Of a stretch of 41,034 nt of DNA, positions 3,159 through 31,703 are shown in pieces. The position numbers were made by a program, and so were the translations under genes. This DNA comes from Dysgonamonadaceae bacterium. Lineage in GTDB: Bacteria > Bacteroidota > Bacteroidia > Bacteroidales > Azobacteroidaceae. The notes under the pieces were generated by a model that ran no database searches, was not told where the DNA came from, and was given only the letters and a program-made list of their open reading frames with translations. The stretch lies in assembly GCA_031270075.1 (NCBI GenBank), contig JAISYG010000112.1, forward strand, positions 1 through 41,034, in the 5' to 3' direction. Each line of letters opens with the position of its first letter. Position 1 is the stretch's first letter.

Positions 3159-3347
3159 TCATCATGACCATTCTTTTCCGTAGCGCTTTTTGGACGTACC
3201 GGCGGTTTGGCCACAATTGTTTTTCCATCCGGTGGGCGAAATACTAATCAATCGCCGATTGGGCCACTTCATTCGTTTTCTGCGTACTTTTTTTTAAATG
3301 ATATAGCCAATTAATCGTATTTTAATTAAATATTAATCACACGACTT

Positions 3348-3355
3348 TATCTTTG
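3348..3355 (+). promoter_or_regulatory. putative Bacteroidetes -7 element (TATCTTTG) upstream of the PUL
   Basis: Matches TAnnTTTG, 23 nt before the GH92 ATG; -33 element not clear. Confidence 0.5.
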
Positions 3356-9051: not shown

Positions 9052-9106
9052 TCCGGTTTTAATTGAAAATTAAGGGAAAATTAATAAATGTTTAATGTTA
9101 GAAAAA

Positions 9107-9114
9107 TAACTTTG
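9107..9114 (+). promoter_or_regulatory. putative -7 element (TAACTTTG) upstream of susC-like gene
   Basis: TAnnTTTG 21 nt before the SusC-like ATG, in an AT-rich intergenic gap. Confidence 0.45.
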
Positions 9115-9134
9115 GTCATCTTAATTTAGTAAAC

Positions 9135-12100: not shown

Positions 12101-12389
12101 AGGATACTTTGCCGACGACTTTTGCAGCGAAGTGTTGTATGACGCCTCCTTCATCAAACTGCGCGAATTAAGCATCGGCTACAACCTGCCGAAAGCATGG
12201 ATATCCAAACTGCATATGAGCCGGGCGCGTATTTCTGCCGTTGGGCGTAATTTATGGATTATTTATCAGAAAACCCCGAAAGGGATTGATCCCGAAGCGG
12301 CTATCAATGCCGGTAACGGACAGGGCATGGAATTTGGTTCTTTGCCGCCCTCCACTACTTTCGGATTGGATATTAAAATCGAATTTTAA
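9135..12389 (+). CDS. SusC/RagA-family TonB-linked outer membrane transporter
   Basis: N-terminal carboxypeptidase-like domain (TITGTVRDVSNETLPGVSITVKGSQRGTTTDRNGKYSI); plug 'PLFVVDGMAIDN', 'IDVLKGPNAAALYGSRAANGVIIITTKKA'. Confidence 0.97.
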   Translation: MKKRSILLVLLCLCFCSGIHAQKTITGTVRDVSNETLPGVSITVKGSQRGTTTDRNGKYSIDFRASDKELVFSYIGMKPQTVSVGNKTTIDVVLEENAEMLNEVVVSALGIKRDAKSLPVAQQRVDAGTISEVRDANLVSSLAGKIAGVMVTPPTSSTGSARIVIRGNSSFTGNNQPLFVVDGMAIDNSDGSQGVNTNGGLDMGNGASDINPDDIETIDVLKGPNAAALYGSRAANGVIIITTKKAKENRFKLAVNSNTMYRYITQWPAFQNSFGLGHTTRMVGGHSEWLLQTDANGNSYPYPGIPSIELISTDQGGRSNGGPMIGIPYLGLDGQIHTYSPQPDNVYAFYQKASTYTNNISVEGGNADNNYRVSLTNFTADDVVERQNLVNKNTLNLRFFNTLTKNLTLDTKLTFIDDDTKNRRYANQSSFNPLYMYIKLARSMSLDELKYYKTPAGTETVKVGGDIHNPYWTINETGNEDKKMRIMGNFDLSYQIFPSLKASLKYGRDYISTNSTEYRNKGALGGGTDAAGYYRRQYNILDNSHYEWLLLFNDRFFNNDVSILGTLGGQQLNYSGSWLNASLVSLKQAGFQHISNSDERPQSDEDILSRKRINGLYGSLSVGFKDFIYMDVTGRNDWSSTLPPENNSYFYPSIGISWLPTEMVGISSDKFYGKLRASYAQVGNDTDPYRLMPYMNLGSGNIYGGYKYVSLPGTVPNNHLKPERTRSLELGADIRLLKGRLNFDITYYQANSFDQIVEADMSISSGYERRVFNAGEIQNKGWEVAANTIPVQLKNFQWNMDFNFTKNESEVLSMVSGLDQIQLGQIYDFYNVLRVGLPYGAMYGSRWVTDLQGRRMVTSDGKPVKIAYDYLGNFNPDFMFSISNRFRWKDFDAYMLVDMKKGGKLYSGMMRYTIRNGVISGDEQQRESHWKRTIIMGDSGGADDLWGGTLLENAYIYDPAQYDNVNDMNTIDPNYVPEQFTGYILPGDVGYFADDFCSEVLYDASFIKLRELSIGYNLPKAWISKLHMSRARISAVGRNLWIIYQKTPKGIDPEAAINAGNGQGMEFGSLPPSTTFGLDIKIEF

Positions 12390-12395
12390 TTTTTT

Positions 12396-14234: not shown

Positions 14235-14257
14235 TAAATAATTAAAATTGAAATACA

Positions 14258-15493
14258 ATGAAAAAGATATTAGCTATATTAAGTATTTCCGTCTTGACGG
14301 CGCTGATTTTTAATGCTTGTGAAGACCGTCCGGATGTATATGATTTTCCCGTGGACGAATATGTCTACGACATCCCGGATGTACCCGTAACGGAAGACTA
14401 CGTTGTCGGCGTTGCATACGATGTGAAACGACGCGATACGCTCCAGCATGTATGGTGGGACAATACAAACAAAAAGCAGCAACTTTATACCGGAACGCCC
14501 GTATTGGGCGAATACGACCTGCGCGACGACGCAAACGTTCTGCAACAACATTTGGACTGGGGAAAGGAAGCCGGCATAGACTTCTTTGTCCTGAACTGGG
14601 GAGGACACGGCTATAACGATACCATCCTGATGAATTGGGAACAATTGTATGCGCAGGATAATGCCCGCCCGAAGGTAGTCATCCGTTTCGACCCGGGCTA
14701 TCGTTTCGGAATTGCAGCGGATCCTTTGCAATTAAATGCTTTACGCATGGATTCCTTGTGCTATGATTTGGATTCGCTTTATACGCACGTGATGAAACAT
14801 GATTTTGTGTATAAGAAAGCCGACGGCAAACCGGTAATGGTGTTCTGTAATTTTACAAATGCCGTTCAGATACCTCTTGTGAACGACTTTATCGCTTTCC
14901 TGAAAAATTCCACCACCATTCATAACAATATATGGTTGATGGCGGATTTGGGAGGAGGCTGGACGTCGCCCGAACGCTGGGGTTATCATGCCGCCAACGG
15001 TTACAACGGACCAACCGCAGGGTATGTGAAACCGGATTCCATCAAGCCTTTCGATGCGTTCTTCATTACCGATATTTCGCATAACAACTACGACCGGTAT
15101 TATTCGCAGTATTCTTACCTGGATTACAACTACCGCTACTGGCAGGAATGCATGAAACCGCTGGGAAAGGAATATATTCCGACCGTACAGCCGGGTTTCG
15201 ACGACCGCGTGAATACTCCCTCCAGCGACCGTTATTTTATTCCGCGCTGGAAAGACGGCAAAGCATACGTGATAAGTTCTTTACTCGAAGGAAGTAACCA
15301 ATACGATTTCAGTAGTTTTACCGAAAATCCGTATAAAAAATGGGCGAATGTGGCCAAGCGAAATGTGGGTAACAGCCGCATAATCATGATATATAATTGG
15401 AATGATTTTACCGGCGGCAGAAATCTGGAGCCTGTAACGGAATTTGGAACGGATTACTTACAGTATACAAGAGAATTATTTAAAAAACGATAA
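14258..15493 (+). CDS. GH99-like (WbsX-like) domain lipoprotein, candidate endo-acting glycosidase or glycan-binding protein
   Basis: Lipobox FNACED; 'HLDWGKEAGIDFFVLNWGG' and 'MIYNWNDFTGGRNLEP' resemble GH71/GH99-like TIM barrels. Confidence 0.65.
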   Translation: MKKILAILSISVLTALIFNACEDRPDVYDFPVDEYVYDIPDVPVTEDYVVGVAYDVKRRDTLQHVWWDNTNKKQQLYTGTPVLGEYDLRDDANVLQQHLDWGKEAGIDFFVLNWGGHGYNDTILMNWEQLYAQDNARPKVVIRFDPGYRFGIAADPLQLNALRMDSLCYDLDSLYTHVMKHDFVYKKADGKPVMVFCNFTNAVQIPLVNDFIAFLKNSTTIHNNIWLMADLGGGWTSPERWGYHAANGYNGPTAGYVKPDSIKPFDAFFITDISHNNYDRYYSQYSYLDYNYRYWQECMKPLGKEYIPTVQPGFDDRVNTPSSDRYFIPRWKDGKAYVISSLLEGSNQYDFSSFTENPYKKWANVAKRNVGNSRIIMIYNWNDFTGGRNLEPVTEFGTDYLQYTRELFKKR

Positions 15494-15496
15494 TCT

Positions 15497-15563
15497 ATTT
15501 TGGGTAGGGCTTAATGGACTTCGGCTTTACTCAAAATTATATAACAAATTAAATGGAAGTCCA
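15497..15563 (+). ncRNA. predicted cis-regulatory RNA hairpin/H-type pseudoknot in an intra-PUL intergenic region
   Basis: 15-bp stem (15497-15511 with 15523-15537, four G-U wobbles); loop 15515-15522 TGGACTTC is fully complementary to 15556-15563 GAAGTCCA. Confidence 0.5.
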
Positions 15564-15592
15564 ATTTCTAATCTTTTTAAATGGTAATATTT

Positions 15593-17404
15593 ATGAAATT
15601 CAATTACTTTTTGAAGTCATTGGCGTTGGTAACACTGATGGCATTAGTAGGGAATGTAAAAGCAGCCGATATCCGTGTTGCCAATGGAGCTACGGATACT
15701 CAATTAGCTGCTGCACTGGAGCAAGCACAAACCGGCGACGTGATTTGGATTGATGGTATTGTAACGATGAATGCCAAGGTACAAATTACAAAAAATGTAA
15801 CCATTAAGGGTGGTGTTGATCTTGCTTATTTTGACGGAGGCGGCTTAACTCGTTTATTTGAAATTGAGCCGGAAGAAATTGACGGAGCGAAGTTGGTTCT
15901 TGAAAACCTGGGTTTTACCGGAGGGAATGCTAAACAAACCGAAACGGATGGTGATGGAGGTGTTGCACGGATTTTCAAAGGCGTAACGGAATTTGTGAAC
16001 TGCTGGTTCGATGACAATGAAGCCAGACGCGGAGGAGCTTTTTTTATCGTAAGAAATGAAACGGCAACAAAAACCACATCGGTTACTTACAAAGGCTGTG
16101 AAGCTACAAACAATCTGGCATCCGACGGTGGCGGCGAAAGTCGTGGCGGCTATATCTTCACCGACGGAGATACCGACATTACCCACGAATACTGTAAAAT
16201 ATCGAGCAACCAATCCATTGGCGGTCGTGGTGGAGCGCTCTGCCTTTTTGGCGCCGGTACACGCCGGTTCTACTACACGATTCTCAGCGATAACAAAGGC
16301 GGCAACTGGGACGATACCGGAAACATCGGCGATGGCGAATACGAAGGCGGGCTTGCTTTTATTACCGGCGGCGCTACAACATTTGAATCGTGCGGTATTG
16401 TTGCTAACAAATCCTGGAGCCATGGCGGTCTGATCCGGGGTTGGGGCAATGCGGCTACAAGTGTAACGTTCATTAATTCGACCGTAACAAAAAATCAAAG
16501 TATGACGAATAAACCTCCCTTGTGGATTGGCGGCGAAGCTACCTATACTTTCGTAAACAGTTTGTTTGTTGAAAATCAAGGATCCAATGAAGGCAACGGC
16601 GCCGGATTCGATTTTGATGGCGGCAATATGAAACTGCATATTTTTAATTCTGTTTTTGCACGTAATATTTGTAGCAGTAATGAAGGCACAGCGGCGGTAG
16701 ATATCAGCGGCGGTTCAAACTTGGCTACTCAGTTGACCGTCAAGAACTCGCTTATCGGTTTGATTAAAGGCAACGATACCGGTGTGGTACCGGTTGACAA
16801 TGCAAACATTCCCACCAAATCCAATACGAGAATGTATAAGTTGACCGATCAGGAAACTTATCAAGTGGCTTATGCTTCGCTGGATGACTCCGGAATTGAT
16901 TTCGGTCAGGGAATAAGATACAGTAAATCGTTCGGAATGCCTTATTATCTGTTAACTGCCGATAGTAAGATAACAAAATTGGGCGACCCCGCTTTGCTGA
17001 TCGATTACGATATTGATACCGATCTGTTTGGACAAAGCCGTCCGGTTGCCGCCGATGGCTCTATCACAGCCGCTCCAACCTTGGCTTCTGTTGCAGATGA
17101 ATACGACGATACCGATTGGAAAAATAATATTACAGGAATCGTTGCACCGGGTATTTCTCTTCCAAAAGAAAATATCCGTATCATCGGTACGGTTGAAAAC
17201 GGTATTTTAGGCGTGGATTTCGGCAATGTAAAAGGTTTGACTAAAGGCGATTTGATTTCCCTTTCCGGACAGGTTGTTGAAAATGTATTCAATATCAATG
17301 TAGTAGGTAAAGGTTACTACAGTGTGAATGTACAACCGGGCATTTATCTGCTCCGCATTACCAACAACGGAAATATGTATACTCAAAAGGTCGTTGTTAA
17401 ATAA
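15593..17404 (+). CDS. right-handed beta-helix / polymorphic-outer-membrane-protein-like secreted protein with T9SS sorting domain
   Basis: Signal peptide MKFNYFLKSLALVTLMALVGNVKA; repeated 'GG.../N..F..N' helix rungs; C-terminus 'YYSVNVQPGIYLLRITNNGNMYTQKVVVK'. ORF track start is 15581; ATG 15593 fits the signal peptide better. Confidence 0.8.
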   Translation: MKFNYFLKSLALVTLMALVGNVKAADIRVANGATDTQLAAALEQAQTGDVIWIDGIVTMNAKVQITKNVTIKGGVDLAYFDGGGLTRLFEIEPEEIDGAKLVLENLGFTGGNAKQTETDGDGGVARIFKGVTEFVNCWFDDNEARRGGAFFIVRNETATKTTSVTYKGCEATNNLASDGGGESRGGYIFTDGDTDITHEYCKISSNQSIGGRGGALCLFGAGTRRFYYTILSDNKGGNWDDTGNIGDGEYEGGLAFITGGATTFESCGIVANKSWSHGGLIRGWGNAATSVTFINSTVTKNQSMTNKPPLWIGGEATYTFVNSLFVENQGSNEGNGAGFDFDGGNMKLHIFNSVFARNICSSNEGTAAVDISGGSNLATQLTVKNSLIGLIKGNDTGVVPVDNANIPTKSNTRMYKLTDQETYQVAYASLDDSGIDFGQGIRYSKSFGMPYYLLTADSKITKLGDPALLIDYDIDTDLFGQSRPVAADGSITAAPTLASVADEYDDTDWKNNITGIVAPGISLPKENIRIIGTVENGILGVDFGNVKGLTKGDLISLSGQVVENVFNINVVGKGYYSVNVQPGIYLLRITNNGNMYTQKVVVK

Positions 17405-17434
17405 TGGATCAAATTATTTATTAAGGTGTAAATT

Positions 17435-17464
17435 GTAGAGACGTTGCACGCGCGGCGTCTCTAC
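17435..17464. repeat. intergenic palindromic repeat GTAGAGACG-N12-CGTCTCTAC
   Basis: Perfect 9-bp arms in the gap between the beta-helix and GH3 genes. Confidence 0.8.
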
Positions 17465-17481
17465 TTTAATCGTATCAATCA

Positions 17482-20172
17482 ATGAATAAAAAACGAATCT
17501 GCATCTATCTCAATTTTATTGTAATCATTCTTTTTACAGCAAGTTGTAATAAAACACCAGCCTATAAGGACGCTTCTTTACCGGTAGAAAAACGGATAAG
17601 TGATTTACTTTCCCGCATGACCCCGGAAGAAAAAGCGGCGCAATTGGATATGCTTTCCGCCAACGATATCCTTATCGACCCGGAAACCTTATCACCGGAA
17701 CAGGTTCATTTTTTTATTGATTCCATGAATATGGGAGCCATCCATGATTTTTACCCCAAATCGGCGGCTTTGGCTAACCAACTGCAAAAACATTCCATCG
17801 AAAATTCCCGGCTGGGAATACCGATTTTATTTATTGAAGAAGCCTTACACGGTTATCAGGGCGCCGGTGCAACTACCTTCCCTATCCCGCAAGGCAACGC
17901 TTCTACATGGGATACAACCTTGATTTACAAGATTGGACGCGCCATTGCATCCGAAGCGCGGGCGCATGGCGTTCATTTTGTATTGGGTCCCAATCTCGAC
18001 TTGGCTCGCGAAATACGTTGGGGACGAGTGGAAGAAACCTTCGGCGAAGATGTTTATCTGACTTCGCGCATGGGAGTTAATCTAATCAAAGGTTTGCAAG
18101 GCAACCGGTTGTCGGATGACAATGCCGTTGCCGCCGAACCCAAACATTTTGCCATACACGGCTCGCCGGAAAACGGAAGCAACGAAGGCCCCGTTTACAC
18201 CGGCGAACGCGAAGCCCGCGCTACGGGACTTTATGTTTTTGAAAAAGCCGTAAAAGAAGCCAATGCCCAAGGGATTATGGCGGCTTACCACGAGATGGAC
18301 GGCGTACCCACCGTAGCAAACCATTGGCTACTTACCGACATTCTTCGCAACGAATGGGGTTTCGACGGATTTGTCGTAACCGATTTGGGAGCTGTCAAAA
18401 AACAAATCACTACACATTATACAGCAAACAACGCGGAGGAAGCTATTCTCAATGCGCTTTCGGCCGGCTTGGATATGCAGTTTTATGATTTCCCGCACAA
18501 CGAGTTCCAACAAACCATTGCCAATGCAGCGAAAAAAGACAAACAGGTACGGAAAGATTTAGACCGCGCCGTAAAAGGTATTCTGCGGGTAAAATTTCTG
18601 CTGGGGCTGTTTGATAATCCTTATACCGACGAAACGCTTGCCGAAAAAACCATGCACAACGCCGAACATCGGGCTTTGGCTTTGGAAGCGGCTCGGCAAT
18701 CCATTGTATTACTGCAAAACGAAAACGACCTGTTACCGCTGTCTTCTCCCAAACGCATCACGCTGACGGGCAATCTCGCTAATTCTAAATATACCGGCGG
18801 TTATTCGCCTGCCGGTGCGGAAGCTATATCTGTTTATGAAGCCCTGAAAGAAAGATCCTCCGGTAAATTTACGCTTGATTATATCAACAGCGAAGTATCC
18901 GACCGGTTTTCCGCTATTCTTCCGGACTTCATGTCGCCCACGGTGAACAGCTCCGAAAGCGGATTAAAAGTAGAATTTTTCAATAATCCGGAATTAAGCG
19001 GCCAGCCGGCTTATACCGCCATCGACGATAACCTGAATCCTTATTGGCACAATCTGAGTCCGGCGCCCGGAATCAATCCGGACGGTTTTTCGGCGCGCTG
19101 GTCGGGATATATTACCGTTCCTGCCGCGGGCGTTTACGAAATCGATTTCCGTGCGGCCAATTACGGCAGGTTGTTCATCAACGGCAAACTTCTCCTCGAC
19201 CATTGGAATGAAGAATGGAAAGACCGGGGCGAAAAGGTTCAAATCCGCCTGGAAGCCGGAAAGAAAATCCCTTTCCGTATCGAATACGCCAAAACAGACG
19301 GCAATGCCGGTGTATGGTTGAAATGGCGGCTGACGCAAGTAAACTCGTTGAGTTTGTATGCCGATATTACCCGTTCGGCGCAAAAATCCGATGCAGTGAT
19401 TGTTGTCATGGGCGAAAGCCGGGAAGAGGTAGGCGAAAGCCGCGATAAAAGCGACCTGAATCCGCAAGCGATGGATATGGAAATAGTGAAAGCCGCCGCC
19501 AAAGCAGGAAAACCGGTTATTACCGTCATGCTTACCGGACGGCCGCTGATTCTGACACAAGTCTGCGAATTATCTCAAGCGCTATTGCAATGCTGGTTCC
19601 CCGGCGAAGCGACGGGAACGGCTATCTGCGACGTCCTCTGGGGCGATTACAATCCTTCCGGACGATTGACCATCACTTTTCCGAAAGCTCAGGGACATCT
19701 GCCAATGTATTATTCGCGTAAACCTTCTTCACACAGAAGATATGTTGAAGGGCTTGCCGAACCGCTTTTCCCCTTCGGCTACGGATTGAGTTATTCCCGT
19801 TTTGAATATAAAAACTTGAGCATTACACCTGAAAACCCCACAACGAACGAGTCTGTTACCCTTAGCCTGGATGTAACAAACACCGGTAATGTGGATGGAA
19901 CGGAAACCGTACAGTTGTATATCAACGATAGGGTCAGCAGTATCGAAACGCCTGTCATGGAATTGAAAGGCTTTGCCAAGGTATTTCTCAAAGCGGGGGA
20001 AACAAAAAAAGTTACATTGTCTTTGAGTCCCGAACATTTTTCACTCATCAACAAAGAAATGAAACGAACGGTCGAACCCGGTGATTTTGAAATGATGATC
20101 GGCAGTTCATCCCGAGATATTCGCCTGCAACAAATAATCACCGTAGGGGATCACCTGCGTGTTCGTCCATGA
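17482..20172 (+). CDS. GH3 family beta-glycosidase with inserted PA14 domain, lipoprotein
   Basis: Lipobox FTASCN; 'RISDLLSRMTPEEKAAQLDML'; nucleophile region 'GFVVTDLGAV'; PA14 'ARWSGYITVPAAGVYEIDFRAANYGRLFINGKLLLD'; fibronectin III-like C-terminus. Confidence 0.93.
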   Translation: MNKKRICIYLNFIVIILFTASCNKTPAYKDASLPVEKRISDLLSRMTPEEKAAQLDMLSANDILIDPETLSPEQVHFFIDSMNMGAIHDFYPKSAALANQLQKHSIENSRLGIPILFIEEALHGYQGAGATTFPIPQGNASTWDTTLIYKIGRAIASEARAHGVHFVLGPNLDLAREIRWGRVEETFGEDVYLTSRMGVNLIKGLQGNRLSDDNAVAAEPKHFAIHGSPENGSNEGPVYTGEREARATGLYVFEKAVKEANAQGIMAAYHEMDGVPTVANHWLLTDILRNEWGFDGFVVTDLGAVKKQITTHYTANNAEEAILNALSAGLDMQFYDFPHNEFQQTIANAAKKDKQVRKDLDRAVKGILRVKFLLGLFDNPYTDETLAEKTMHNAEHRALALEAARQSIVLLQNENDLLPLSSPKRITLTGNLANSKYTGGYSPAGAEAISVYEALKERSSGKFTLDYINSEVSDRFSAILPDFMSPTVNSSESGLKVEFFNNPELSGQPAYTAIDDNLNPYWHNLSPAPGINPDGFSARWSGYITVPAAGVYEIDFRAANYGRLFINGKLLLDHWNEEWKDRGEKVQIRLEAGKKIPFRIEYAKTDGNAGVWLKWRLTQVNSLSLYADITRSAQKSDAVIVVMGESREEVGESRDKSDLNPQAMDMEIVKAAAKAGKPVITVMLTGRPLILTQVCELSQALLQCWFPGEATGTAICDVLWGDYNPSGRLTITFPKAQGHLPMYYSRKPSSHRRYVEGLAEPLFPFGYGLSYSRFEYKNLSITPENPTTNESVTLSLDVTNTGNVDGTETVQLYINDRVSSIETPVMELKGFAKVFLKAGETKKVTLSLSPEHFSLINKEMKRTVEPGDFEMMIGSSSRDIRLQQIITVGDHLRVRP

Positions 20173-22460
20173 AAAAACCTGCAATCTTGTTTATCGTTTT
20201 ATGGGTCGGTTTTTCAGCGGCATTCGGGTACGAACAGACTCCTTCCGGCGTGAAGGTCGGTATCAATGGATATGATATAGAAATCCGGTTTTATTCGCCG
20301 CAAATAGTTCGTATTATCAAATGGCCTGCCGGAAAAACCATTCAAGAAGAAAGTCTTTCAGTCGTCAAGCAAGCGGAAAAAACGCCTTTTACACTGACTC
20401 AAACAGGCAATAGGGTTTGGTTGAAAAGCGAAGCAATAACAGCCGAACTGAATCTTCTGACCGGAAATATTGATTTTTCCGCTGCAAACGGACGTCCTTT
20501 ATTAGCCGAAAAAGAACATGCCGGACTTTCCCAGACGTTTCGCTTAGACGAGCAAGAACCTGTCTATGGATTGGGGCAACAGCAGGAAGGCCGGATGAAC
20601 CGACGGGGAGAATCCGTTTGGCTGGTGCAGGAAAATATGCGGATTGCTATTCCTTTTTTTCAATCCGTTAAAGGATACGGCGTATTTTGGGACAATTATT
20701 CGGCAACACAATTTACCGACAATCTCAATGGCGCTACTTTTGCCTCCGAGGCGGGTGATGGCATTGATTATTATTTCCTTTATGGGAAAACAATGGACGG
20801 CGTCATCGCCTGTATGCGCGACTTGACCGGGCAAGTTCCGCTCTATCCGCTCTGGGCATGGGGTTACTGGCAATCGAAAGAACGCTATACCAGCCGGAAA
20901 GAATTGGTCGGAACCGTTGAACGGTACCGCAAAGGGGGTGTCCCCCTGGACGGCATTATCCAGGATTGGCAATACTGGAGCGTCGATAATGCTTATTGGA
21001 ACGGTTTGTCGTTCGGCAATCCCGAATTTCCCGATCCCAAACAAATGATGCAAGACATCCACCGGCTACATGCCCATGCGATTATTTCCGTGTGGCCGTC
21101 GTTCGGGACAAAAACCGAACCGTACCGGATTTTTAAGGAAAAAGGCCTGTTACTTGATTTAGAATCTTTTCCGCAACAGGATTCCGTCCGGGTTTACGAT
21201 GCTTTCGATCCGGAAGCGCGCAGTATTTATTGGGATTGGATGAATAAAAATATTTTTTCTGCCGGAATCGACGGTTGGTGGTTAGATGCTACCGAACCGG
21301 AATATTCCAACCTGACGGAAGCGCAATTAAATCAATTCACCGCAATGGGTTCATTCCGGAAATTTCGCAACGCCTTTCCGTTGTTGAGCGTAAAAGGGGT
21401 TTATGAACATCAACGGGAAACGACTGACGACAAACGAGTGTATATCCTGACTCGTTCCGCTTTTGCCGGGCAACAACGCTATGCAGCCAACTCCTGGTCG
21501 GGCGATATCGACGGAAATTGGGAAACTTTTCGCAAACAAATTCCGGCGGGATTAAATTTTTCGCTTTGCGGCTTGCCCTATTGGAACACCGATATCGGCG
21601 GATTTTGGGTGCGCAACGGCAGTTCGGCTGACAACGATTACAGGGAGTTATATGTCCGTTGGTTACAATTCGGCGCTTTCACTCCGATGATGCGCTCGCA
21701 TGGAACCAATACGCCGCGCGAAATATGGCAATTCGGGAGAAAAGGCGACTGGGCCTACGATGCCATTGAAAAATATATCCGCTTGCGATATCGCTTATTG
21801 CCCTACCATTATTCCCTTTCGTGGCATGTAACCTCCGAAAGCGGTTCGATAATGCGGCCGTTAGCAATGGATTTTCCGAACGATAAAAAAGTTTGGAATA
21901 TGGGTAGCGAATATATGTATGGCCGGTCAATTTTGGTTGTTCCGGTTACTCAATCTTTTTATTCCAAAGGCGAAAAAGCCGCTTCGACAGTGGATTTTTC
22001 ACAAACCCAAACCGTTCCGGTTTATTTGCCGGAAGGCGCCGGTTGGTACGATTTTTGGACGGAAGAAAAATGGGACGGAGGAACGGAACTTCGACGGGAA
22101 ACGCCTGTTGATATTTTGCCGCTTTACGTGAAAGCCGGCTCCATTATTCCTTATGGAACCGATGTGCAGTATGCCGCTGAAAAAAAATGGCAAAATCTTG
22201 AATTGAAAATCTATCCCGGAAAGGATGCGGAATTTATTTTGTATGAAGACGAAAACGATAATTACAATTACGAAAAAGGCGTTTACTCTACAATCACAAT
22301 CCGCTGGAACGACGCCGGCCGCACGCTGACTGTTGAAAATAGGCAGGGCAGTTTTCCCGGAATGTTGGAAGAACGCACTTTTCAAATTACATTTGCAGGA
22401 AATAACGAAAAAACAATTATTCAATATAACGGACAAACAATAAAAACGAAAATAGATTGA
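20169..22460 (+). CDS. GH31 family alpha-glycosidase (alpha-glucosidase/alpha-xylosidase type)
   Basis: 'LWAWGYWQSKERYTSRKELVGTVERYRKGGVPLDGIIQDWQYW', nucleophile 'DGWWLDATEPEY', 'NSWSGDIDGNWETF'; 4-bp ATGA overlap with GH3. Confidence 0.93.
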   Translation: MKKPAILFIVLWVGFSAAFGYEQTPSGVKVGINGYDIEIRFYSPQIVRIIKWPAGKTIQEESLSVVKQAEKTPFTLTQTGNRVWLKSEAITAELNLLTGNIDFSAANGRPLLAEKEHAGLSQTFRLDEQEPVYGLGQQQEGRMNRRGESVWLVQENMRIAIPFFQSVKGYGVFWDNYSATQFTDNLNGATFASEAGDGIDYYFLYGKTMDGVIACMRDLTGQVPLYPLWAWGYWQSKERYTSRKELVGTVERYRKGGVPLDGIIQDWQYWSVDNAYWNGLSFGNPEFPDPKQMMQDIHRLHAHAIISVWPSFGTKTEPYRIFKEKGLLLDLESFPQQDSVRVYDAFDPEARSIYWDWMNKNIFSAGIDGWWLDATEPEYSNLTEAQLNQFTAMGSFRKFRNAFPLLSVKGVYEHQRETTDDKRVYILTRSAFAGQQRYAANSWSGDIDGNWETFRKQIPAGLNFSLCGLPYWNTDIGGFWVRNGSSADNDYRELYVRWLQFGAFTPMMRSHGTNTPREIWQFGRKGDWAYDAIEKYIRLRYRLLPYHYSLSWHVTSESGSIMRPLAMDFPNDKKVWNMGSEYMYGRSILVVPVTQSFYSKGEKAASTVDFSQTQTVPVYLPEGAGWYDFWTEEKWDGGTELRRETPVDILPLYVKAGSIIPYGTDVQYAAEKKWQNLELKIYPGKDAEFILYEDENDNYNYEKGVYSTITIRWNDAGRTLTVENRQGSFPGMLEERTFQITFAGNNEKTIIQYNGQTIKTKID

Positions 22461-22494
22461 AGTTCAAGTATATAAATCAATAGTTATCAACAAT

Positions 22495-24207
22495 ATGAAA
22501 AATTTATTATTTACCGGCTTTATAAGCCTTTTCCTTTCCTGTAACGCCTGTGGGCAACAGGTAGAAAAAGAATTTGTCTACACCGGAAACCCGATTGTAA
22601 GGGATATCTATACAGCCGACCCGTCGGCGCATGTTTGGACGATTGACGGCAAGGAACGCTTGTATGTATATCCATCCCACGATATAGACCCGCCGAGCGG
22701 TTGCGACCGAATGGATAAATATCACGTTTATTCAACCGACGATATGGTGCATTGGACCGACCACGGGCAAATCCTTGAAGCCTCACAAGTGTCTTGGGGT
22801 GTACCCATCACCAACGCATCTTCCGGCGCAACCTTTATGTGGGCGCCCGATTGCGCTTACCGCAACGGCAAGTACTATTTCTATTTTCCTCATCCCTACG
22901 GCCCTACATGGAACGACACCTGGCGTATCGGTATTGCCGTAAGTGACGAGCCGGCCGCTAATTTTCAGGTATTATCGCATACGCTTATCGGCTTACCCGA
23001 CGAGGGACACATCGACCCCTGCGTATTCATCGACGACGACGGGCAGGCGTATTTTTACTACGGAGGCGGTAACCACTGTTTTGGCGCCCAATTGAAAGAA
23101 AATATGATTGAACTTGACGGCTCCTTACAAGCCATGACCGGTTTGATTGACTTTCATGAAGGAGCATGGGTCTTTAAACGGAATGGCGTTTATTACCTTA
23201 CTTACGCCGATAATACCGGTGGAGCCAATCAGTTGCGTTACGCAACCGGCGATAATCCATTGGGCCCATGGTCGTACAAAGGCGTTTACCTGACTTCGAC
23301 GACCAGCGATACCAGCCACGGTTCGGTGGTGGAATATAAAGGTCAATGGTGGGCGTTTTACCACACGGCCGATCTGTCCGGAACCGGTTTGTTGAGAAGT
23401 ATTTGTGTGGATTCGCTGTTTTTTAATGAAAACGGAACCATCCAAACCGTTGCACAAACCAAAGATAAGGGTACGCCATACAAGGGAATTGAGCGAACAG
23501 CCCCCGGTACGATTGAGGCGGAAGATTACAACGAAGGCGGACAGGGAATTGCTTATTGGGACACAACGGAAGGCAATCCCTCTTTGGAATATCGCAGGGA
23601 AGATGTGGACATCAGCAAAGACCGCCGCACAGGTATTGTATATGTAACCAATACCGCCAATAAGGAATATCTGAATTACACTTATGAAGTGTTGAAAGAC
23701 GGTGTTTACAACATCGAATTTCGTATCGGAGCCGTATCCGGCAGTCCGGCAGTGAAGTTCTATTTGGAATACGACGGGAAGAAACTGACGAATCCTTACC
23801 GTTATACAGTTCCAACTGCCTCTGTATCCGATTTGGCAACCGTTATTGCTTCGAATATTGCACTGACGAAAGGCAGGCATACCATTGGGTTTTATCCTTC
23901 GGGAAATGTGTATTTCGACCGGTTTACTTTCGTGAATACAGCCACTGACATTCGGGATATTGGAATCCATCCGGTATCGGTATATCCCAATCCTTCCAAT
24001 GGCGTTTTTCACGTACAAAGCAACGATAAAGTAAATTCCGTATCGGTTTTCGACGTCAGCGGAAAAAATATTTTACAGGGGAAAGGCGGCGATTCCAATC
24101 TGAAAATTGATTTGTCGAAACAAATGCCCGGTATTTATTTCCTTACTTTACTGACCGACGAGAGGATGTACCGAAGTAAATTAGTAAAAAACAGTCGACA
24201 GCTATGA
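22495..24207 (+). CDS. GH43 family glycosidase with CBM6-like module and T9SS type A sorting domain
   Basis: Triad motifs 'TADPSAHVW', 'HIDPCVFIDDDG', 'FHEGAWVFKRNGVYYLTYA'; CBM6 'GTIEAEDYNEGGQGIAYWD'; C-terminus 'VYPNPSNGVFHV...MPGIYFLTLLTDERMYRSKLVKN'. Confidence 0.9.
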   Translation: MKNLLFTGFISLFLSCNACGQQVEKEFVYTGNPIVRDIYTADPSAHVWTIDGKERLYVYPSHDIDPPSGCDRMDKYHVYSTDDMVHWTDHGQILEASQVSWGVPITNASSGATFMWAPDCAYRNGKYYFYFPHPYGPTWNDTWRIGIAVSDEPAANFQVLSHTLIGLPDEGHIDPCVFIDDDGQAYFYYGGGNHCFGAQLKENMIELDGSLQAMTGLIDFHEGAWVFKRNGVYYLTYADNTGGANQLRYATGDNPLGPWSYKGVYLTSTTSDTSHGSVVEYKGQWWAFYHTADLSGTGLLRSICVDSLFFNENGTIQTVAQTKDKGTPYKGIERTAPGTIEAEDYNEGGQGIAYWDTTEGNPSLEYRREDVDISKDRRTGIVYVTNTANKEYLNYTYEVLKDGVYNIEFRIGAVSGSPAVKFYLEYDGKKLTNPYRYTVPTASVSDLATVIASNIALTKGRHTIGFYPSGNVYFDRFTFVNTATDIRDIGIHPVSVYPNPSNGVFHVQSNDKVNSVSVFDVSGKNILQGKGGDSNLKIDLSKQMPGIYFLTLLTDERMYRSKLVKNSRQL

Positions 24208-27050
24208 AAAAAGGAATAATCGTCTTATTGCTTCTTGTTTATTGGCCGGGTAGCGCACAAACCATCCGGAAATACGATTCTTATAAAGGCTTGGCAATGG
24301 CAGGTTATCAGGGATGGTTCAGTTGTCCGGGCGACGGCTCCGACCGGGGTTGGTATCATTATTGCGGAAAAGACGATAAATTTCATCCGGGCAATTGTAC
24401 CATTGATATGTGGCCTGATGTATCGGAATATGAAAAGATTTATAAAACCGATTTTGTTTTTGCCGATGGACGCCCTGCGTATGTGATGAGCGAATACGAC
24501 GAATCGACGGTTCAAACGCATTTTCGTTGGATGCGCGAATATGGCATCGACGGTGTCTTCGTCCAGCGTTTTGTGGCGGAAATCAAACGTCCCAAAAGTT
24601 ATAATCAACTGAATAAAGTCTGGAAATCGGCTATCCATGCCGCTAATACCAACCATCGCGCCATCGGTATTATGTACGATTTGAGTGGCATGTTGCCCGG
24701 CGACGAACAATTGGTATTGATGGACATCGACTCCATTGCCAAGCAATATGATATTCGGGAACGCATCTACAATCCGTCCTATTTGCATCACAACGGCAAA
24801 CCTTTGGTTGCCGTATGGGGCGTTGGATTTAACGATCGTCGAAAATATGGCTTCCGTGAAGCAGAAATCATTATCGACGCTTTAATCGAACGCGGTTACA
24901 GTGTACTGATAGGTGTTCCCACTCATTGGCGAAAACTGGAAGACGATACACTCAATGACCCTGAATTACACCGCCTGATACGAAAATGCGATATAGTGAT
25001 GCCCTGGTTTGTTGGCCGTTACAACGAGCAAACGTTCCCTCGCTACGAAAAATTAGTAAAGGAAGATATGGAATGGTGTAAACAAAACAATGTGGATTAT
25101 GCGCCATTGGCTTTCCCCGGATTTTCGTGGGTAAATATGAACAAAGGCTCGAAGCCGATTCCCCGAAATCGCGGCAGCTTTTACTGGCAACAACTGACAA
25201 GCCATATCCATCAGGGAGCGGAAATGTTGTATCTGGCTATGTTCGACGAGATAGACGAAGGTACGGCTATCTTCAAATGCGCAACCGAGGTTCCGGTTGG
25301 CAAAAGTTATTTTCTTCCCTTAGACGCCGACTTGGGAAACGATTATTATTTGGTTTTGGCAGGAAAGGCAAGCCGGATGTTGAAAAAAACACAGTCGGAT
25401 AATAACCGGATTATAGCCAATCCCATGGATTTGAATTATCGTTTTCAGTTTGATGAGCCGTCGCGCAGGGAAGCTGCCGATCCGGTTTGCGAATATTTCA
25501 ACGGGAAATATTACTTATTTGCTTCTAAATCGGGTGGATACTGGAGTTCGCAGGATTTGGTGAATTGGAACTATATTCGTTGCACCACTATTCCCGTACA
25601 GGAAAATTATGCCCCGACCATTTTGGTTTGGGAAGGTAAATTGTATTATTTTGTAAGCGGTTCGACACGAATTTTTTATACCGATAATCCGGATATCGAC
25701 CAATGGAAAGAACTTACACCCTCACGTTTTGAATATTCGGTAACCGACCCCGCTTTTTTCAAAGACGACAGCACCGGTAAAGTCTATATGTATTGGGGTT
25801 GTTCGGATAAAGACCCGATTATGGGTGTGGAAATCAATCCCGCCAACAACTTCCAAGCCGTTGGAACGCCTCTGGTATTGATCGAACACAATGTGGATAA
25901 ATACGGATGGGAAGTTCCCGGAAACAACAATGAAGAAAACCGGACCGGCTGGAACGAAGGACCTTGCATGATTCAATACAAAGGCAAATATTACCTGCAA
26001 TATGCAGCGCCGGGTACACAATACCGGATTTACGGCGACGGTATTTATGTGGGCAATCATCCGTTAGGCCCATTTACTTACATGGAAAACAGTCCTTTTT
26101 CTTTCAAACCCGGCGGTTTTATCGGAGGTGCCGGACATGGACATACTTTTCAGGATAAATATGGAAATTATTGGCATGTAGCCACCATGCGGATTTCACA
26201 ACGCCATTCTTTTGAGCGACGACTGGGCTTGTTCCCCGTTTATTTCGATGAAAACGACCATTTGTGTGCACATACGGTTTGGACGGATTATCCCTTTGTT
26301 GTTCCCGACGAAAAAACAGATCTGAAAACAAACGACGGTTCTTTGCATTGGAATTTATTGTCGTACAAACAACCGGTTACTGCATCGTCGGTCTATGCGG
26401 AATATATTCCGGAAAATGCCAACAACGAAGCAATAGAAAACGGGTGGTCGGCGCAAACCGGAAATGCAGGCGAATGGTGGCAAATTGATTTGGGAAAAAC
26501 CATGAAAATAAATGCCATACAAGTCAATTTCGCCGATCAGGATGTTACAGTTAAAGCACCCGATTCATACGTGGTTTACCAATATTATATTAAAACATCC
26601 AACGATGGCAAAAACTGGGTGTGGTTCAGCGACCGGACACACAATACGGTTGACCGGCCACACGAACTGCTTGTGGCCGATACAGCTCAAACGGCAAGAT
26701 ATATTCGGATTACCAATGCAAAAAACAGGAATGGAAAATTTTCCCTGTCGGGATTTCGTGTTTTCGGCAAAGGAAACGGTGAAATTCCTCCGGAAGTAAC
26801 CGGTATACAGATTCATAGAAATGAAAACGATCCACGCCGCTTCACTCTGACGTGGAATAAGCAAGAAAACACAACCGGCTATGTTGTACGTTGGGGTGTG
26901 AACGAAAATCAATTAACCCATGCGAGCATGGTGTTTTCCAATCGCTTGGAAGCCGGTTATTTCAATCGCGATTCGGAATATTATTTTTCAATTGACGCAT
27001 GGAATGAAAACGGAGTAACAGCAGGAAAGCAGATTTATCACAACAAATAA
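24204..27050 (+). CDS. multidomain protein: N-terminal GH71/GH99-like barrel, GH43-like five-bladed propeller, F5/8 type C domain, FN3-like C-terminus
   Basis: 'YKGLAMAGYQGWFSCPGDGSDRGWYHY...GIDGVFVQRFV'; then 'AADPVCEYFNGKYYLFAS...ENYAPTILVWEGKLYYF...VTDPAFFKDDSTGKVYMYWG...WNEGPCMIQYKGKYYLQYA'; then 'EWWQIDLGKTMKINAIQVNF...ARYIRITNAKN'. Confidence 0.8.
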   Translation: MKKGIIVLLLLVYWPGSAQTIRKYDSYKGLAMAGYQGWFSCPGDGSDRGWYHYCGKDDKFHPGNCTIDMWPDVSEYEKIYKTDFVFADGRPAYVMSEYDESTVQTHFRWMREYGIDGVFVQRFVAEIKRPKSYNQLNKVWKSAIHAANTNHRAIGIMYDLSGMLPGDEQLVLMDIDSIAKQYDIRERIYNPSYLHHNGKPLVAVWGVGFNDRRKYGFREAEIIIDALIERGYSVLIGVPTHWRKLEDDTLNDPELHRLIRKCDIVMPWFVGRYNEQTFPRYEKLVKEDMEWCKQNNVDYAPLAFPGFSWVNMNKGSKPIPRNRGSFYWQQLTSHIHQGAEMLYLAMFDEIDEGTAIFKCATEVPVGKSYFLPLDADLGNDYYLVLAGKASRMLKKTQSDNNRIIANPMDLNYRFQFDEPSRREAADPVCEYFNGKYYLFASKSGGYWSSQDLVNWNYIRCTTIPVQENYAPTILVWEGKLYYFVSGSTRIFYTDNPDIDQWKELTPSRFEYSVTDPAFFKDDSTGKVYMYWGCSDKDPIMGVEINPANNFQAVGTPLVLIEHNVDKYGWEVPGNNNEENRTGWNEGPCMIQYKGKYYLQYAAPGTQYRIYGDGIYVGNHPLGPFTYMENSPFSFKPGGFIGGAGHGHTFQDKYGNYWHVATMRISQRHSFERRLGLFPVYFDENDHLCAHTVWTDYPFVVPDEKTDLKTNDGSLHWNLLSYKQPVTASSVYAEYIPENANNEAIENGWSAQTGNAGEWWQIDLGKTMKINAIQVNFADQDVTVKAPDSYVVYQYYIKTSNDGKNWVWFSDRTHNTVDRPHELLVADTAQTARYIRITNAKNRNGKFSLSGFRVFGKGNGEIPPEVTGIQIHRNENDPRRFTLTWNKQENTTGYVVRWGVNENQLTHASMVFSNRLEAGYFNRDSEYYFSIDAWNENGVTAGKQIYHNK

Positions 27051-27057
27051 TTACAAT

Positions 27058-28947
27058 ATGAAAACAATTTTATCAGGTATATTGGCTATTTGGGGAACAC
27101 TATCTCTCTTCGCCCAAAACGAAGAATGGCTTTTTTCGCCGAAAGGAATTGCGGAAGTACGCATCACTTTGTCGGATGGTAAGAAAACAGAGGATATAAA
27201 AAATGAAAAGCACGATCCGGATTACGCCGGAAAATTGGAAGCGACTATGCGTATTTCCAATTCAACGATGTCCGGATATTTGGAGGAAGATTTTTATAAC
27301 GGGAAAATTCTGATTGAAGGCAGGGGAAATACCACGTGGGGTGTTCCCAAAAAACCCTATAATATCGATTTGATACAAGAAGACGGAAACGAAAATCCGG
27401 TGGCGCTATTGGATATGCCGGAATCCGAAGAGTGGTGTTTGCTGGCATTCTGGCACGATCGGAGCTTAATGCGTATTCCGTTGGCAATGTATTTGGGACA
27501 ACATCTGGATCATATTCAGTGGACTCCCCGCATGCGTTATGTGGAACTTTGGGTAAATAACGATTACAGAGGATTGTATTGTTTATCGGAAAAAGTTCAG
27601 AGAGGCGATAATAGAATAAAAATCAAGAAATTAACAGATGCAGAGGAAGATCAGGTAACGCCTCGTATTTCCGGAGGTTATATCCTGGAGGCTTCCTCTC
27701 CGGATAAGCTCGACGAGAAAGAAAAAGCTGTACAGTTTCAGACATCCACAGATATTAATTTTTCTTTTAAATATCCGAAAGCCAAGAACGTAACGCCGGC
27801 GCAAAGGGAATGGATCAGGGATTATATCAATGAATTTGAATCCGTTTTGTGGGATGATAACAAGTTCAAAGATTTGGTCAATGGTTTTCGGAAATACATT
27901 GATATTCCCAGCTTTATAGATTGGACTATTTTACACGAGCTTTCAAAAGGTTGCGACAATTTGTTTCATGCCAGCATTTTTGTTCATAAAGAAAGGAATG
28001 AAAAACTGAATATGAGCGCTCCTTGGGATTTTGATCTTTCATTCGGAAATTCCGGCATTTATACGGAAGATGGAAATTGGATAAGAGATCACCGGTGGTT
28101 TCACCGTTTGTACCGGGATGAAAATTATGCTGCCCAATACAACAGCCGCTACGAGGCATTGCAACCTCTTGTTGAAAAAATACCGGGTATTTTGCAGGCC
28201 AACTACCACGCATTGGAAGAATCGGGCGCTATTGAACGGGAAAAGAATAAATGGCCGCAAATATTGTCGGAATACCGTAGTCAGGACGGCTTTGTAACTC
28301 CTAAAAGCCACCAAGCCCATGTGCAATATTTGAGCGAATGGATTCTGTCACGAAATACATGGAGTTATATTTCTTTGGGATTGAATAATCAGGAAAAAGG
28401 GAATCGCATGAAAACCATTCGGCCGATTATTCGGCTAATGGATCCCGAAAGTATGCAAGCCGGGTCAGGGTTCGATGTGAAAGTAATGAAAAGCGATGAA
28501 AATAACAATAAATATACCTATAGCTGGAATGATGGAACGTTTAATAACACCTCATCCCGCCGGATTTCACAAAAAGGAAAATATTGGGTGAAAATAAAAG
28601 ACGAATGGGGAAATAGCAGTTTGGCCTCCGACACGCTCTATTTTGGCGTTGAACCCCCGACCGGAATAGCCGCTATGGTACCGATAATTCCTTCTATCAC
28701 ACACAACAATCCTGTAAAAGATTTTTTGCATATCTATTATTTTTCCACCAAAGCATGCAATAGCCCTTTTCAATTGTTTGATATAAGAGGAAAAATAGTT
28801 CTAAGCGGCTCATTTCAAATACATTCCGGAAACAACGATATAATCATCCCCGTTTCCGGTTTAGAAAATGGAACGTACATTCTGCACTTATATACAGAAG
28901 AAAGACTGATTGCACGAAAAATTATTATAAACAACCCATTTGAATAA
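27058..28947 (+). CDS. CotH kinase-like family protein with T9SS sorting domain
   Basis: 'ILIEGRGNTTWGVPKKPYNIDL', 'WCLLAFWHDRSLMRIPLAMYLGQ', 'YVELWVNNDYRGLYCLSEKVQRGDNRIKI', 'MSAPWDFDLSFGN' are CotH signatures; C-terminal T9SS-like domain 'FDIRGKIVLSG...LENGTYILHLYTEERLIARKIII'. Confidence 0.85.
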   Translation: MKTILSGILAIWGTLSLFAQNEEWLFSPKGIAEVRITLSDGKKTEDIKNEKHDPDYAGKLEATMRISNSTMSGYLEEDFYNGKILIEGRGNTTWGVPKKPYNIDLIQEDGNENPVALLDMPESEEWCLLAFWHDRSLMRIPLAMYLGQHLDHIQWTPRMRYVELWVNNDYRGLYCLSEKVQRGDNRIKIKKLTDAEEDQVTPRISGGYILEASSPDKLDEKEKAVQFQTSTDINFSFKYPKAKNVTPAQREWIRDYINEFESVLWDDNKFKDLVNGFRKYIDIPSFIDWTILHELSKGCDNLFHASIFVHKERNEKLNMSAPWDFDLSFGNSGIYTEDGNWIRDHRWFHRLYRDENYAAQYNSRYEALQPLVEKIPGILQANYHALEESGAIEREKNKWPQILSEYRSQDGFVTPKSHQAHVQYLSEWILSRNTWSYISLGLNNQEKGNRMKTIRPIIRLMDPESMQAGSGFDVKVMKSDENNNKYTYSWNDGTFNNTSSRRISQKGKYWVKIKDEWGNSSLASDTLYFGVEPPTGIAAMVPIIPSITHNNPVKDFLHIYYFSTKACNSPFQLFDIRGKIVLSGSFQIHSGNNDIIIPVSGLENGTYILHLYTEERLIARKIIINNPFE

Positions 28948-28958
28948 ACCAATAAATA

Positions 28959-28990
28959 TTTGTGAAAGTGAAAAATTCCGGCTAAATTTG
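28959..28990 (+). promoter_or_regulatory. Bacteroidetes-type promoter TTTG-N20-TAAATTTG for the regulator gene
   Basis: TTTG 28959-28962 and TAAATTTG 28983-28990, about 48 nt upstream of the GTG start. Confidence 0.65.
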
Positions 28991-29037: not shown

Positions 29038-31593
29038 GTGAGGAACTGCGATCGAAACATCTTTTATTTTAGTCTGTTGACGTTTTTCTTCATGGCAGGT
29101 TCTGCTTACGGGCAATTTCTTGAAGGGGGTTTATACTTTCATTCGCATCATCAAAATATAGATGGGAGAACTTCATTGATTTTGAATAATAACAAGCCTT
29201 ATGTATTGGATAATCAAGATGAATTTACAATGGAATTGGACGTTTTTCTGAGGAATGAAGATATTAAATTCGGCTATGTTTTTAGAGTAATATCAAACAC
29301 CGGCGAAAATTTCGACTTCATTGTGAATAATGAATTAAAGGCTTTTTTTGTAGTCAATAATCATGACTTTCAATTAAAAACAATATTGAATCCCGAACAG
29401 TGGATTCATATGGCTTTTACCGTCAATAAAAAGCAGAATTGTATTTCTTTCCGGTTCAACGATGAAATCATTCATTGTCATCCCCATGAATTGAAGAACA
29501 TTAAGAACCTGAATATCTGCTTTGGGAAATGTGATTTCAAAAATTTCCTGACAAACGATGTGGCTCCCGTTATCATGAGAAATATTCGCATTTATTACAA
29601 CAACAAGGAATTACATCATTGGATATTGAACAAGCACGGAACAAATATTGTTTTTGATGAACTGAGAAATATGCCTGCCATTGCTTCCAATCCTTTCTGG
29701 ACAATGGATAATCGGGCGTATTGGAAAAAAATAGCTGAATTTCAATCTACATTATTTCCCCAAATTACTTTCGATTCGATTCATAATCTTATTTATATTT
29801 TGAATAGTAATGAATTGATTTCTTATTCTTTATCAACCTTTTCCACAAAAAGGATCAAATGTAATTCCGAAATACGGGGGAAATTTTATAATCATTTGTT
29901 ATTTGATCCGGTTTCTTCCCGGCTGTTTTTTTACAGTATTGAAAAAGAACAAAATTACTATTATGATTTTGCCGGCAATTCTTGGACAGGATACCAACCG
30001 GATGAAGATGAACCTACTCACGCTCACCAGAATCGTTATATTTCCAACTGCGATTCATCGCTGTATCTATTCGGCGGATATGGTTTTTATAAATATAAAA
30101 GTGATTTTTTTAAAATTAATTTGAAAACCGGCGAAAGGAACTGTTACGATTTTTCCCATACCATAACGCCTCGCTATTTAGCGGCTATGGGAGGAAATAA
30201 TGGCGGAGATAAAGTTTATATTTTAGGAGGTCGCGGATCGGAAATGGGAAGACAGGAACTGTCGCCGAAAAATTTTTCGGATTTGTATGAAGTAGATTTG
30301 AAAACATTGAAAGTTAATTATTTATTCGACATAGACAAAGATGGCGATAAAGGTAATGTTTATTCCAACAGTTTAATTGTGGATGAGAACGATAAAAATA
30401 TTTATGTCTTGGTTTATCCTAATAAAACATATGCTTCCTCCATAAGTCTGATAAAAATCAATCTTGAAACACAGAAAGAGGAAGTATTAGCCGATTCCAT
30501 CGAGTTTTATTTTCAGGATATTACATCGTTTTGTGATTTGTATTATTCTGAACAATTATCCCAATTAGTAGCAGTTGCCTCTTACTCCAAAGATCAGCAA
30601 ACATCGTGTATTCAAGTGTACACGTTAGATTATCCGCCATTAAATCAACAAGATGCAATACAACATATATCCGTAAACCGGATAAATAAATTGTGGTTTT
30701 TTGTAGCGGGCGCTTTGTTTCTTATGATTATTTTCCGAATCATAAAGAAAAATGTAAGAAAGCAATCGAAAAAGAAAAACGAAACGAACCAAGAGAAACC
30801 GGAAATGGACAGTAATCCAGAAGATATACTGAAAGAAAAAGCCTATTACGATTTTAAAAAGAAATCCATTTTATTCCTTGGCGGTTTTCAAGTGTTTAAT
30901 AAAAACGGTGAAAATATAACCGGCGAATTTGCACCTACATTAAAGTATATTTTGGTGTTGATGATTCTCTACTCCAATCAAAAAGGAATATCCTCGTCGA
31001 AATTGCAGGAATTATTATGGTTCGATAAAACGGAAGAAGCCGCCCGGAATAATCGGAATGTAAACATCAGTAAATTGAGAGTTATCCTTCAAGAATTGGG
31101 CAATATCGACATAACCAATCAAAACGGTTACTGGACAATTGTTTTTCCGGACGATATATTTTCCGATTATAAAGAAACGCTGAGGCTGATAAACAAAATC
31201 CAAAATGAAACAATAACCTCCAAAGAGGATTTATTACGGCTTTTATCTCTTCTTGATTACGGGCCAATGCTCCCGAATATACAATTGGAATGGATAGATA
31301 ATTTTAAGACGGGTTTTACAAATTCCGTCATTGATACGTTGATGTATATTGTCGACAATAAAAACAATTCATTTTACAACAATCAGGACATTCGTTTAAA
31401 AATTGCCGATTCGCTCTTAAAATTGGATTCCATTTGTGAAGAAGCGATAAGTATCAAATGCAAAGCCTTTATCCAAATGGGTAAAAAAAGTTTGGCTAAG
31501 GTTACTTTCGATAATTTTACTAAGGAGTATAAAGCTTTATTGGGTGAGCCTTATCCGGGGTCAGATAAAAATTTTTGTAATTATTCGGTCTGA
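29038..31593 (+). CDS. transmembrane one-component regulator: signal peptide, LamG-like and kelch-like ectodomain, TM helix, SARP-like winged helix plus BTAD
   Basis: LamG-like 'FTMELDVFLRN...WIHMAFTVNKKQNCISFRFND'; kelch-like 'YLFGGYGFYKYKSDFFKINLKTGERN', 'KVYILGGRGSEMGRQ...SDLYEVDLKTLKV'; TM 'LWFFVAGALFLMIIFRII' (30691-30744); wHTH 'LQELLWFDKTEEAARNNRNVNISKLRVIL'; BTAD-like 'LDSICEEAISIKCKAFIQMGKKSLAKVTFDNFTKEYKALLGEPY'. GTG start. Confidence 0.75.
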   Translation: MRNCDRNIFYFSLLTFFFMAGSAYGQFLEGGLYFHSHHQNIDGRTSLILNNNKPYVLDNQDEFTMELDVFLRNEDIKFGYVFRVISNTGENFDFIVNNELKAFFVVNNHDFQLKTILNPEQWIHMAFTVNKKQNCISFRFNDEIIHCHPHELKNIKNLNICFGKCDFKNFLTNDVAPVIMRNIRIYYNNKELHHWILNKHGTNIVFDELRNMPAIASNPFWTMDNRAYWKKIAEFQSTLFPQITFDSIHNLIYILNSNELISYSLSTFSTKRIKCNSEIRGKFYNHLLFDPVSSRLFFYSIEKEQNYYYDFAGNSWTGYQPDEDEPTHAHQNRYISNCDSSLYLFGGYGFYKYKSDFFKINLKTGERNCYDFSHTITPRYLAAMGGNNGGDKVYILGGRGSEMGRQELSPKNFSDLYEVDLKTLKVNYLFDIDKDGDKGNVYSNSLIVDENDKNIYVLVYPNKTYASSISLIKINLETQKEEVLADSIEFYFQDITSFCDLYYSEQLSQLVAVASYSKDQQTSCIQVYTLDYPPLNQQDAIQHISVNRINKLWFFVAGALFLMIIFRIIKKNVRKQSKKKNETNQEKPEMDSNPEDILKEKAYYDFKKKSILFLGGFQVFNKNGENITGEFAPTLKYILVLMILYSNQKGISSSKLQELLWFDKTEEAARNNRNVNISKLRVILQELGNIDITNQNGYWTIVFPDDIFSDYKETLRLINKIQNETITSKEDLLRLLSLLDYGPMLPNIQLEWIDNFKTGFTNSVIDTLMYIVDNKNNSFYNNQDIRLKIADSLLKLDSICEEAISIKCKAFIQMGKKSLAKVTFDNFTKEYKALLGEPYPGSDKNFCNYSV

Positions 31594-31703
31594 GGAATGA
31601 ACTCACAACCATATCCGATAGCAGGGAATTCAATTAGAAAGATTTTCTCATCAAATATATTAAATTTTCCGGTTGGGAGTTATGCCGTTTCCAAAAAATA
31701 TAT

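Follow-up and report, generated by a model that had tools for sequence, protein, structure and literature searches.

A gene in the DNA stretch analysed here, 41,034 nt from a Dysgonamonadaceae genome (the window), very likely encodes a transmembrane one-component transcription activator of the adjoining PUL, with an output module of the SARP type. The predicted protein would sense its ligand outside the cytoplasmic membrane and would bind and activate the promoters of the PUL on the other side of it, through a single transmembrane (TM) helix. This view is supported by the domain structure and topology of the protein and its relatives, by their linkage to PULs, and by a phased TTAA array found at the PUL promoters and in most of the family's genomes that encode the regulator. 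The features of the window are collected in Table 1.

Table 1. Coordinates of the regulator gene, its domains, the PUL and the predicted operators in the window
Feature	Coordinates	Strand	Basis
Predicted target PUL: GH92, RHGA-like, SusC, SusD-like, WbsX-like, 607-aa protein, GH3, GH31, GH43, GH43, CotH	3378..28947	+	domain scans
Predicted operator before GH92: TTAA at 3311, 3322, 3333 (11-bp phase)	3311..3336	+	motif scan
-7 box TATCTTTG of GH92 promoter, 15 bp from last TTAA start	3348..3355	+	sequence
Predicted operator before susC: TTAA at 9048, 9059, 9070, 9081, 9092 (11-bp phase)	9048..9095	+	motif scan
-7 box TAACTTTG of susC promoter, 15 bp from last TTAA start	9107..9114	+	sequence
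Regulator's own promoter: TTTG (28959-28962)-N20-TAAATTTG (28983-28990), without TTAA array	28959..28990	+	sequence
Predicted transmembrane SARP-type regulator gene, 851 aa, GTG start	29038..31593	+	open ORF, full-length relatives, AlphaFold
Predicted signal peptide (about aa 1-26)	29038..29115	+	helix 3-23 in model; hydrophobic N-terminal stretch in 58/60 relatives
Predicted all-beta, LamG-like domain (aa 46-217)	29173..29688	+	AlphaFold; Laminin_G_3 E 0.076 by sequence
Kelch beta-propeller (aa 242-540)	29761..30657	+	Pfam, AlphaFold
Predicted single TM helix (aa 551-576), then basic linker	30688..30765	+	AlphaFold, K/R flank counts
OmpR-type winged helix (aa 610-702)	30865..31143	+	AlphaFold, PDB fold match, Pfam in relatives
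BTAD helical domain (aa 705-846)	31150..31575	+	AlphaFold, PDB fold match, Pfam in relatives

A preliminary description of this DNA, made from the letters alone, had read the frame as a signal peptide, a LamG-like region, kelch-like repeats, a TM helix, a winged helix and a BTAD-like tail, and this layout holds up. The frame is open, and its product has relatives over the full length, with identities of 61%, 47% and about 20-35%. The AlphaFold model built with 60 relatives has a mean pLDDT of 90.5, with a disordered linker after the TM helix. The kelch repeats are detected by Pfam in the window protein itself (E 4e-10), and 10 of 10 relatives have matches to kelch families. For the LamG-like region an all-beta domain is predicted, but its sequence match is weak. 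A ConA/LamG-like sandwich is plausible for this segment of the model, likely but not proven. Conservation across the family is highest in the winged helix and lowest in the TM helix and linker.

The C-terminal part shows the SARP fold, an OmpR-type winged helix followed by a BTAD domain, both of which had been proposed from the letters. Folded alone, it reaches a pLDDT of 94, and among all PDB chains only AfsR (8hvr, 8k60) and EmbR (2fez, 2ff4) match the model at E<=1e-3, with a TM-score of about 0.6. Among 68 relatives, Pfam recognizes BTAD in 7 and Trans_reg_C in 6, while no domain passes the Pfam threshold in the C-terminus of the window regulator itself. By sequence, the profile of the C-terminal part finds only PhoB-family winged-helix proteins in the PDB (E 0.0014), and the whole regulator finds nothing significant there. 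The Pfam scan revealed no histidine kinase, receiver or AraC domain in the regulator, and its membership in the HTCS, SusR or ECF types is ruled out by the absence of their domains. Lysine and arginine are more abundant on the C-terminal than on the N-terminal side of the TM helix in 58 of 60 relatives (mean 5.2 vs 1.7). This places the C-terminus in the cytoplasm and agrees with the earlier view that the ectodomain lies outside and the DNA-binding domain inside. With a signal peptide, one TM helix, and extracytoplasmic and cytoplasmic DNA-binding domains on one chain, the modelled domains are those of a one-component transmembrane regulator (TTR).

The regulator belongs to an expanded family, with about 60 relatives of full length. 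The preliminary picture of the protein stands, but not as that of a lone oddity, and HTCS-type regulators are encoded in the same genomes. The closest named relative found (L014, 61% identity) comes from a Dysgonamonadaceae MAG. Within the taxonomic family, 23 of 48 genomes encode the regulator, with up to 7 copies per genome. It is rarer in the order (8 of 149 genomes, its own counted) and in the phylum (18 of 396, its own counted, some weak kelch-only matches being among them). Some relatives keep only the TM and SARP parts under other ectodomains, such as L025 with a clear LamG (E 1.3e-19) and L130 with a TPR region, and the effector module seems to be reused with different sensors. The L130 protein (L130:994-2880, from a Bacteroidota genome) represents a further architecture of the SARP type, in which the TPR region is followed at the C-terminus by Trans_reg_C and BTAD, both exceeding the Pfam cut-offs. 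Tandem or split regulators occur at three loci (L127:7325-11819, L128:8849-12573 and L129:8902-11459), either as a full-length and a shorter copy or as N- and C-terminal halves in separate ORFs. The host genome itself (G000, a 2.43-Mb draft) contains a second regulator N-terminus of 136 aa, cut by the end of its contig (C117, L026:1-408), and no second array was found genome-wide.

The LamG-like/kelch ectodomain is placed in the periplasm, as supported by the topology analysis, and it probably binds a product of the glycan targeted by the PUL. LamG-like domains and propellers are both common as ectodomains of Bacteroidota glycan sensors. One blade of the propeller contains the motif GGxGxExGxQELSPxNYYDLY (window 30217-30291, aa 394-418), strongly conserved family-wide although the PUL contents differ, hinting at a common ligand or partner. 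Directly upstream of the regulator lies a gene for a T9SS-tagged CotH-kinase-domain protein (window 27058-28947), and the same arrangement is seen in the close relatives L081, L082, L083 and L085 (about 60% identity). Both observations, together with the fact that kelch propellers often bind proteins (as do the top PDB matches of this propeller), would suit another reading, in which the ligand is a protein partner or an envelope signal, such as the secreted product of the neighbouring CotH gene or a common cue, and not the PUL glycan. CotH is not adjacent to most other members of the family, and we consider this reading possible but rather unlikely.

The regulator gene lies 3′ of the PUL and is transcribed in the same direction. 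The PUL genes scanned include no other regulator, in agreement with the preliminary description. The association of relatives with PULs, on which that description had made its reading depend, was also found, at a frequency far above chance: a same-strand susC is the next gene downstream in 12 of 57 relatives, compared with 2 of 189 control genes taken from these genomes (Fisher p 6e-7). SusC alone was counted here because the window SusD is too divergent to find other SusD genes. The regulator-susC pairs are spread over separate clades of the tree, including one from a lineage of another order (L121). Relatives are encoded together with SusC/SusD and glycoside hydrolases, as PUL regulators are. 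Homologues of GH92, RHGA, GH43 and CotH are richer near the regulator than in control stretches, although the control is small (0.29 Mb). An orthologous PUL is present in another taxonomic family (L015), with identities of 73% for GH92, 65% for RHGA and 66% for SusC. It runs divergently from the adjoining regulator, 47% identical to that of the window, and carries arrays of 4 and 5 copies at the same two promoters. The GH92 gene of that PUL is divided into two ORFs (L015:5861-8161) by a frameshift or an assembly error.

Ribosomal genes from rpsH onward follow the regulator in the window. The PUL and the regulator occupy the site where rpsN would precede rpsH (window 31594-31856), so that the ribosomal operon spc is interrupted. 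rpsN stands directly before rpsH in G545 and G555, while other DNA is found at that place in G554, G552, G573 and G579; the splitting of spc therefore recurs in the genus.

Both promoters that had been named earlier as targets, those of GH92 and susC, carry TTAA repeats at an 11-bp period, which we regard as predicted operators. In the host genome, TTAA-N7-TTAA-N7-TTAA occurs only at these two promoters of the window PUL, and allowing a 12-bp spacing reveals no further array. When the two promoters were dinucleotide-shuffled, the observed chains were attained in 0 of 500 cases. Over the 1.06 Mb of 65 regulator loci, 12 arrays have the 11-bp spacing and 26 the 12-bp spacing, and 45 are counted when either is allowed; the control stretches (0.29 Mb) have 0, 0 and 1, respectively. 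Periods of 9, 10 and 13 bp yield 2, 0 and 0 arrays in the regulator loci. The repeats had first been noticed by eye in promoters used for the first counts, and the genome-wide and presence/absence scans came later. Nearly all arrays of the regulator loci lie just upstream of susC, GH92, RHGA, GH43, GH3 or regulator genes, and in 17 of 21 exact cases the -7 box (TAnnTTTG) follows the last TTAA at a distance of 15 bp. Units of the 11-bp class have G or T at position +4 in 92% of cases and never C at -1. Since the units show no palindromic symmetry beyond TTAA, they form direct repeats oriented towards the gene. The -33 TTTG of the regulator's own promoter, where the promoter-like sequence recognized earlier proved to have the Bacteroidetes -33/-7 form, is missing from the GH92 and susC promoters.

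This is the geometry known for the binding sites of SARPs, which are direct repeats spaced by 11 or 22 bp, with the 3′ copy 8 bp from the -10 element. These sites commonly overlap the -35 region, and AfsR, as a side-by-side dimer, docks sigma region 4 (PMC10936776). In the window the direct repeats are also 11 bp apart, and the last TTAA starts 15 bp before the -7 box, which leaves 8 bp if the heptamer is read as TTAATNN. Footprinting by alignment of regulator-susC gaps gave little signal. The exact TTAA chains in some single gaps (L090, L097, L101 and L114) are not significant; the signal lies in the set. A loose scan for three copies at 11 bp in 15 relatives was noisy and near its reversed control in several genomes, and this noise was removed by adding the -7 box to the motif.

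The resulting composite motif, three phased units and a -7 box 15 bp on, was searched in the 48 genomes of the taxonomic family. It is present in 19 of the 23 genomes with the regulator, four of which lack the exact motif, and in 0 of the 25 without it. The corresponding Fisher p of 8e-10 is descriptive, because the genomes are related and the counts are not independent, and regulator-less genomes may also be poorer in PULs, a possible confounder of the pattern. The reversed composite pattern is absent from all 48 genomes. No array is present in G581, which has 6 Y_Y_Y matches and lacks the regulator, and none was found at 20 susC promoters away from the regulator. Many motif sites lie on contigs without a regulator, and the assemblies are fragmented. 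Outside the family the motif is seen at 5 sites of G030, L015 and L016 among them, and next to the regulator of G133; otherwise it is about as rare there as its reversed control. The spacing of 11 or 12 bp is distributed by clade: it requires 3 changes on the regulator tree, compared with a mean of 7.5 for shuffled labels, and none of 500 shuffles had as few. This suggests that the spacing evolves with the protein. Contig C1 of G548 has seven full operator-promoter motifs over about 49 kb (36613-85288) and a single regulator (39357-41879), and it represents, by its sequence, a candidate multi-operon regulon.

Theoretically, the arrays might be read by another regulator, such as an unlinked HTCS or a nucleoid-type protein, while the transmembrane SARP controls something else or only itself. 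HTCS-type proteins are encoded in most of these genomes, and the direct repeats of known HTCS sites are separated by about 21 bp, near two helical turns (PMC3878776); the many arrays on contigs without the regulator would also fit. This possibility is improbable, primarily because of the presence/absence pattern, G581 included, and the match between spacing class and regulator tree. Moreover, only the regulator-adjacent PUL bears the motif in the host genome, other susC promoters are array-free, and the geometry is the one known from SARP sites. Alternatively, the regulator could be a repressor that holds the PUL promoters off and releases them on ligand binding. The position of the arrays immediately upstream of the -7 box would be compatible with that, but they stand in for the -33 box and overlap neither the -7 box nor the start site, in promoters that, unlike the regulator's own, lack the -33 TTTG. 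SARPs of the same fold and site position are activators (PMC10936776, PMC10972967), and because of this analogy and the position of the arrays we consider repression highly improbable. That AT-rich promoters merely yield functionless TTAA repeats by chance or base composition, as the loose scan might imply, is hardly credible in view of the shuffles, the scarcity of other periods, the fixed distance to the -7 box and the tracking of the regulator by the motif.

Activation by the transmembrane SARP may therefore be pictured as follows. The periplasmic ectodomain would bind a product of the PUL glycan, and the signal would cross the single TM helix to the cytoplasmic SARP module, probably via an altered oligomeric state. 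Several modules may then sit side by side on the phased TTAA units of the observed arrays. The promoter-proximal one, 15 bp from the -7 box, would take the place of the -33 box and recruit RNA polymerase to the GH92 and susC operons; the geometry is seen at the promoters, and activation we infer from AfsR. The regulator has an ordinary promoter of its own, from which it would be expressed, so that the sensor can be present before induction.

The regulator shares with the SARPs of Streptomyces and Mycobacterium (AfsR, EmbR, ActII-ORF4 and RedD) the winged helix followed by BTAD and, as predicted here, a direct-repeat operator of 11-bp period near the -10/-7 element that replaces the -35/-33 element (PMC10936776, PMC5930380). 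In contrast, the characterised SARPs are soluble, actinobacterial and mostly devoted to antibiotic clusters, whereas here the output module stands at the C-terminal end of the chain, behind a periplasmic sensor and a TM helix, and is found in Bacteroidota and at PULs, and the predicted operator is TTAA-based, with a 12-bp period in some clades. TTRs of the CadC/ToxR type (PMC10269533) also combine an extracytoplasmic sensor, a TM helix and an OmpR-like DNA-binding domain on one polypeptide, but in reverse order: the present regulator has its sensor N-terminal and its DNA-binding domain C-terminal, with BTAD added. The text of that TTR survey names no SARP, BTAD or kelch (PMC10269533). The HTCS of Bacteroidota PULs are similar in their periplasmic, propeller-containing sensor, PUL linkage and direct-repeat sites. 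The regulator is shorter than these, without their histidine kinase, receiver and AraC domains, and its predicted arrays have 3-5 repeats at 11-12 bp, where the HTCS have two sites separated by about 21 bp (PMC3878776). SusR, with sites 67-77 bp apart (PMC3878776), and the ECF-sigma/anti-sigma pairs are likewise PUL-linked and membrane-associated in their signalling; they differ in fold, and the regulator presumably binds DNA directly and does not release a sigma factor. In the open-access literature nothing relevant was found on SARP or BTAD at Bacteroidetes PULs, and closed papers may differ. The parts, that is, the SARP module, transmembrane regulators and PUL regulators, are known; their combination and the operator appear to be new.

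Transmembrane SARPs are thus likely to be a further class of PUL regulators beside SusR, HTCS and ECF/anti-sigma, in which a periplasmic kelch sensor would signal directly to arrays of membrane-tethered activators and the spacing of the arrays co-evolves with the protein. In them the SARP output, its operator geometry unchanged, would serve a membrane sensor and the use of carbohydrates in a phylum other than the actinobacteria. If true, this would add not only a class of PUL regulators but also an operator rule by which regulons may be predicted in these genomes, and it would raise the question of how membrane-anchored activators line up on 3-5 adjacent repeats by the promoter.
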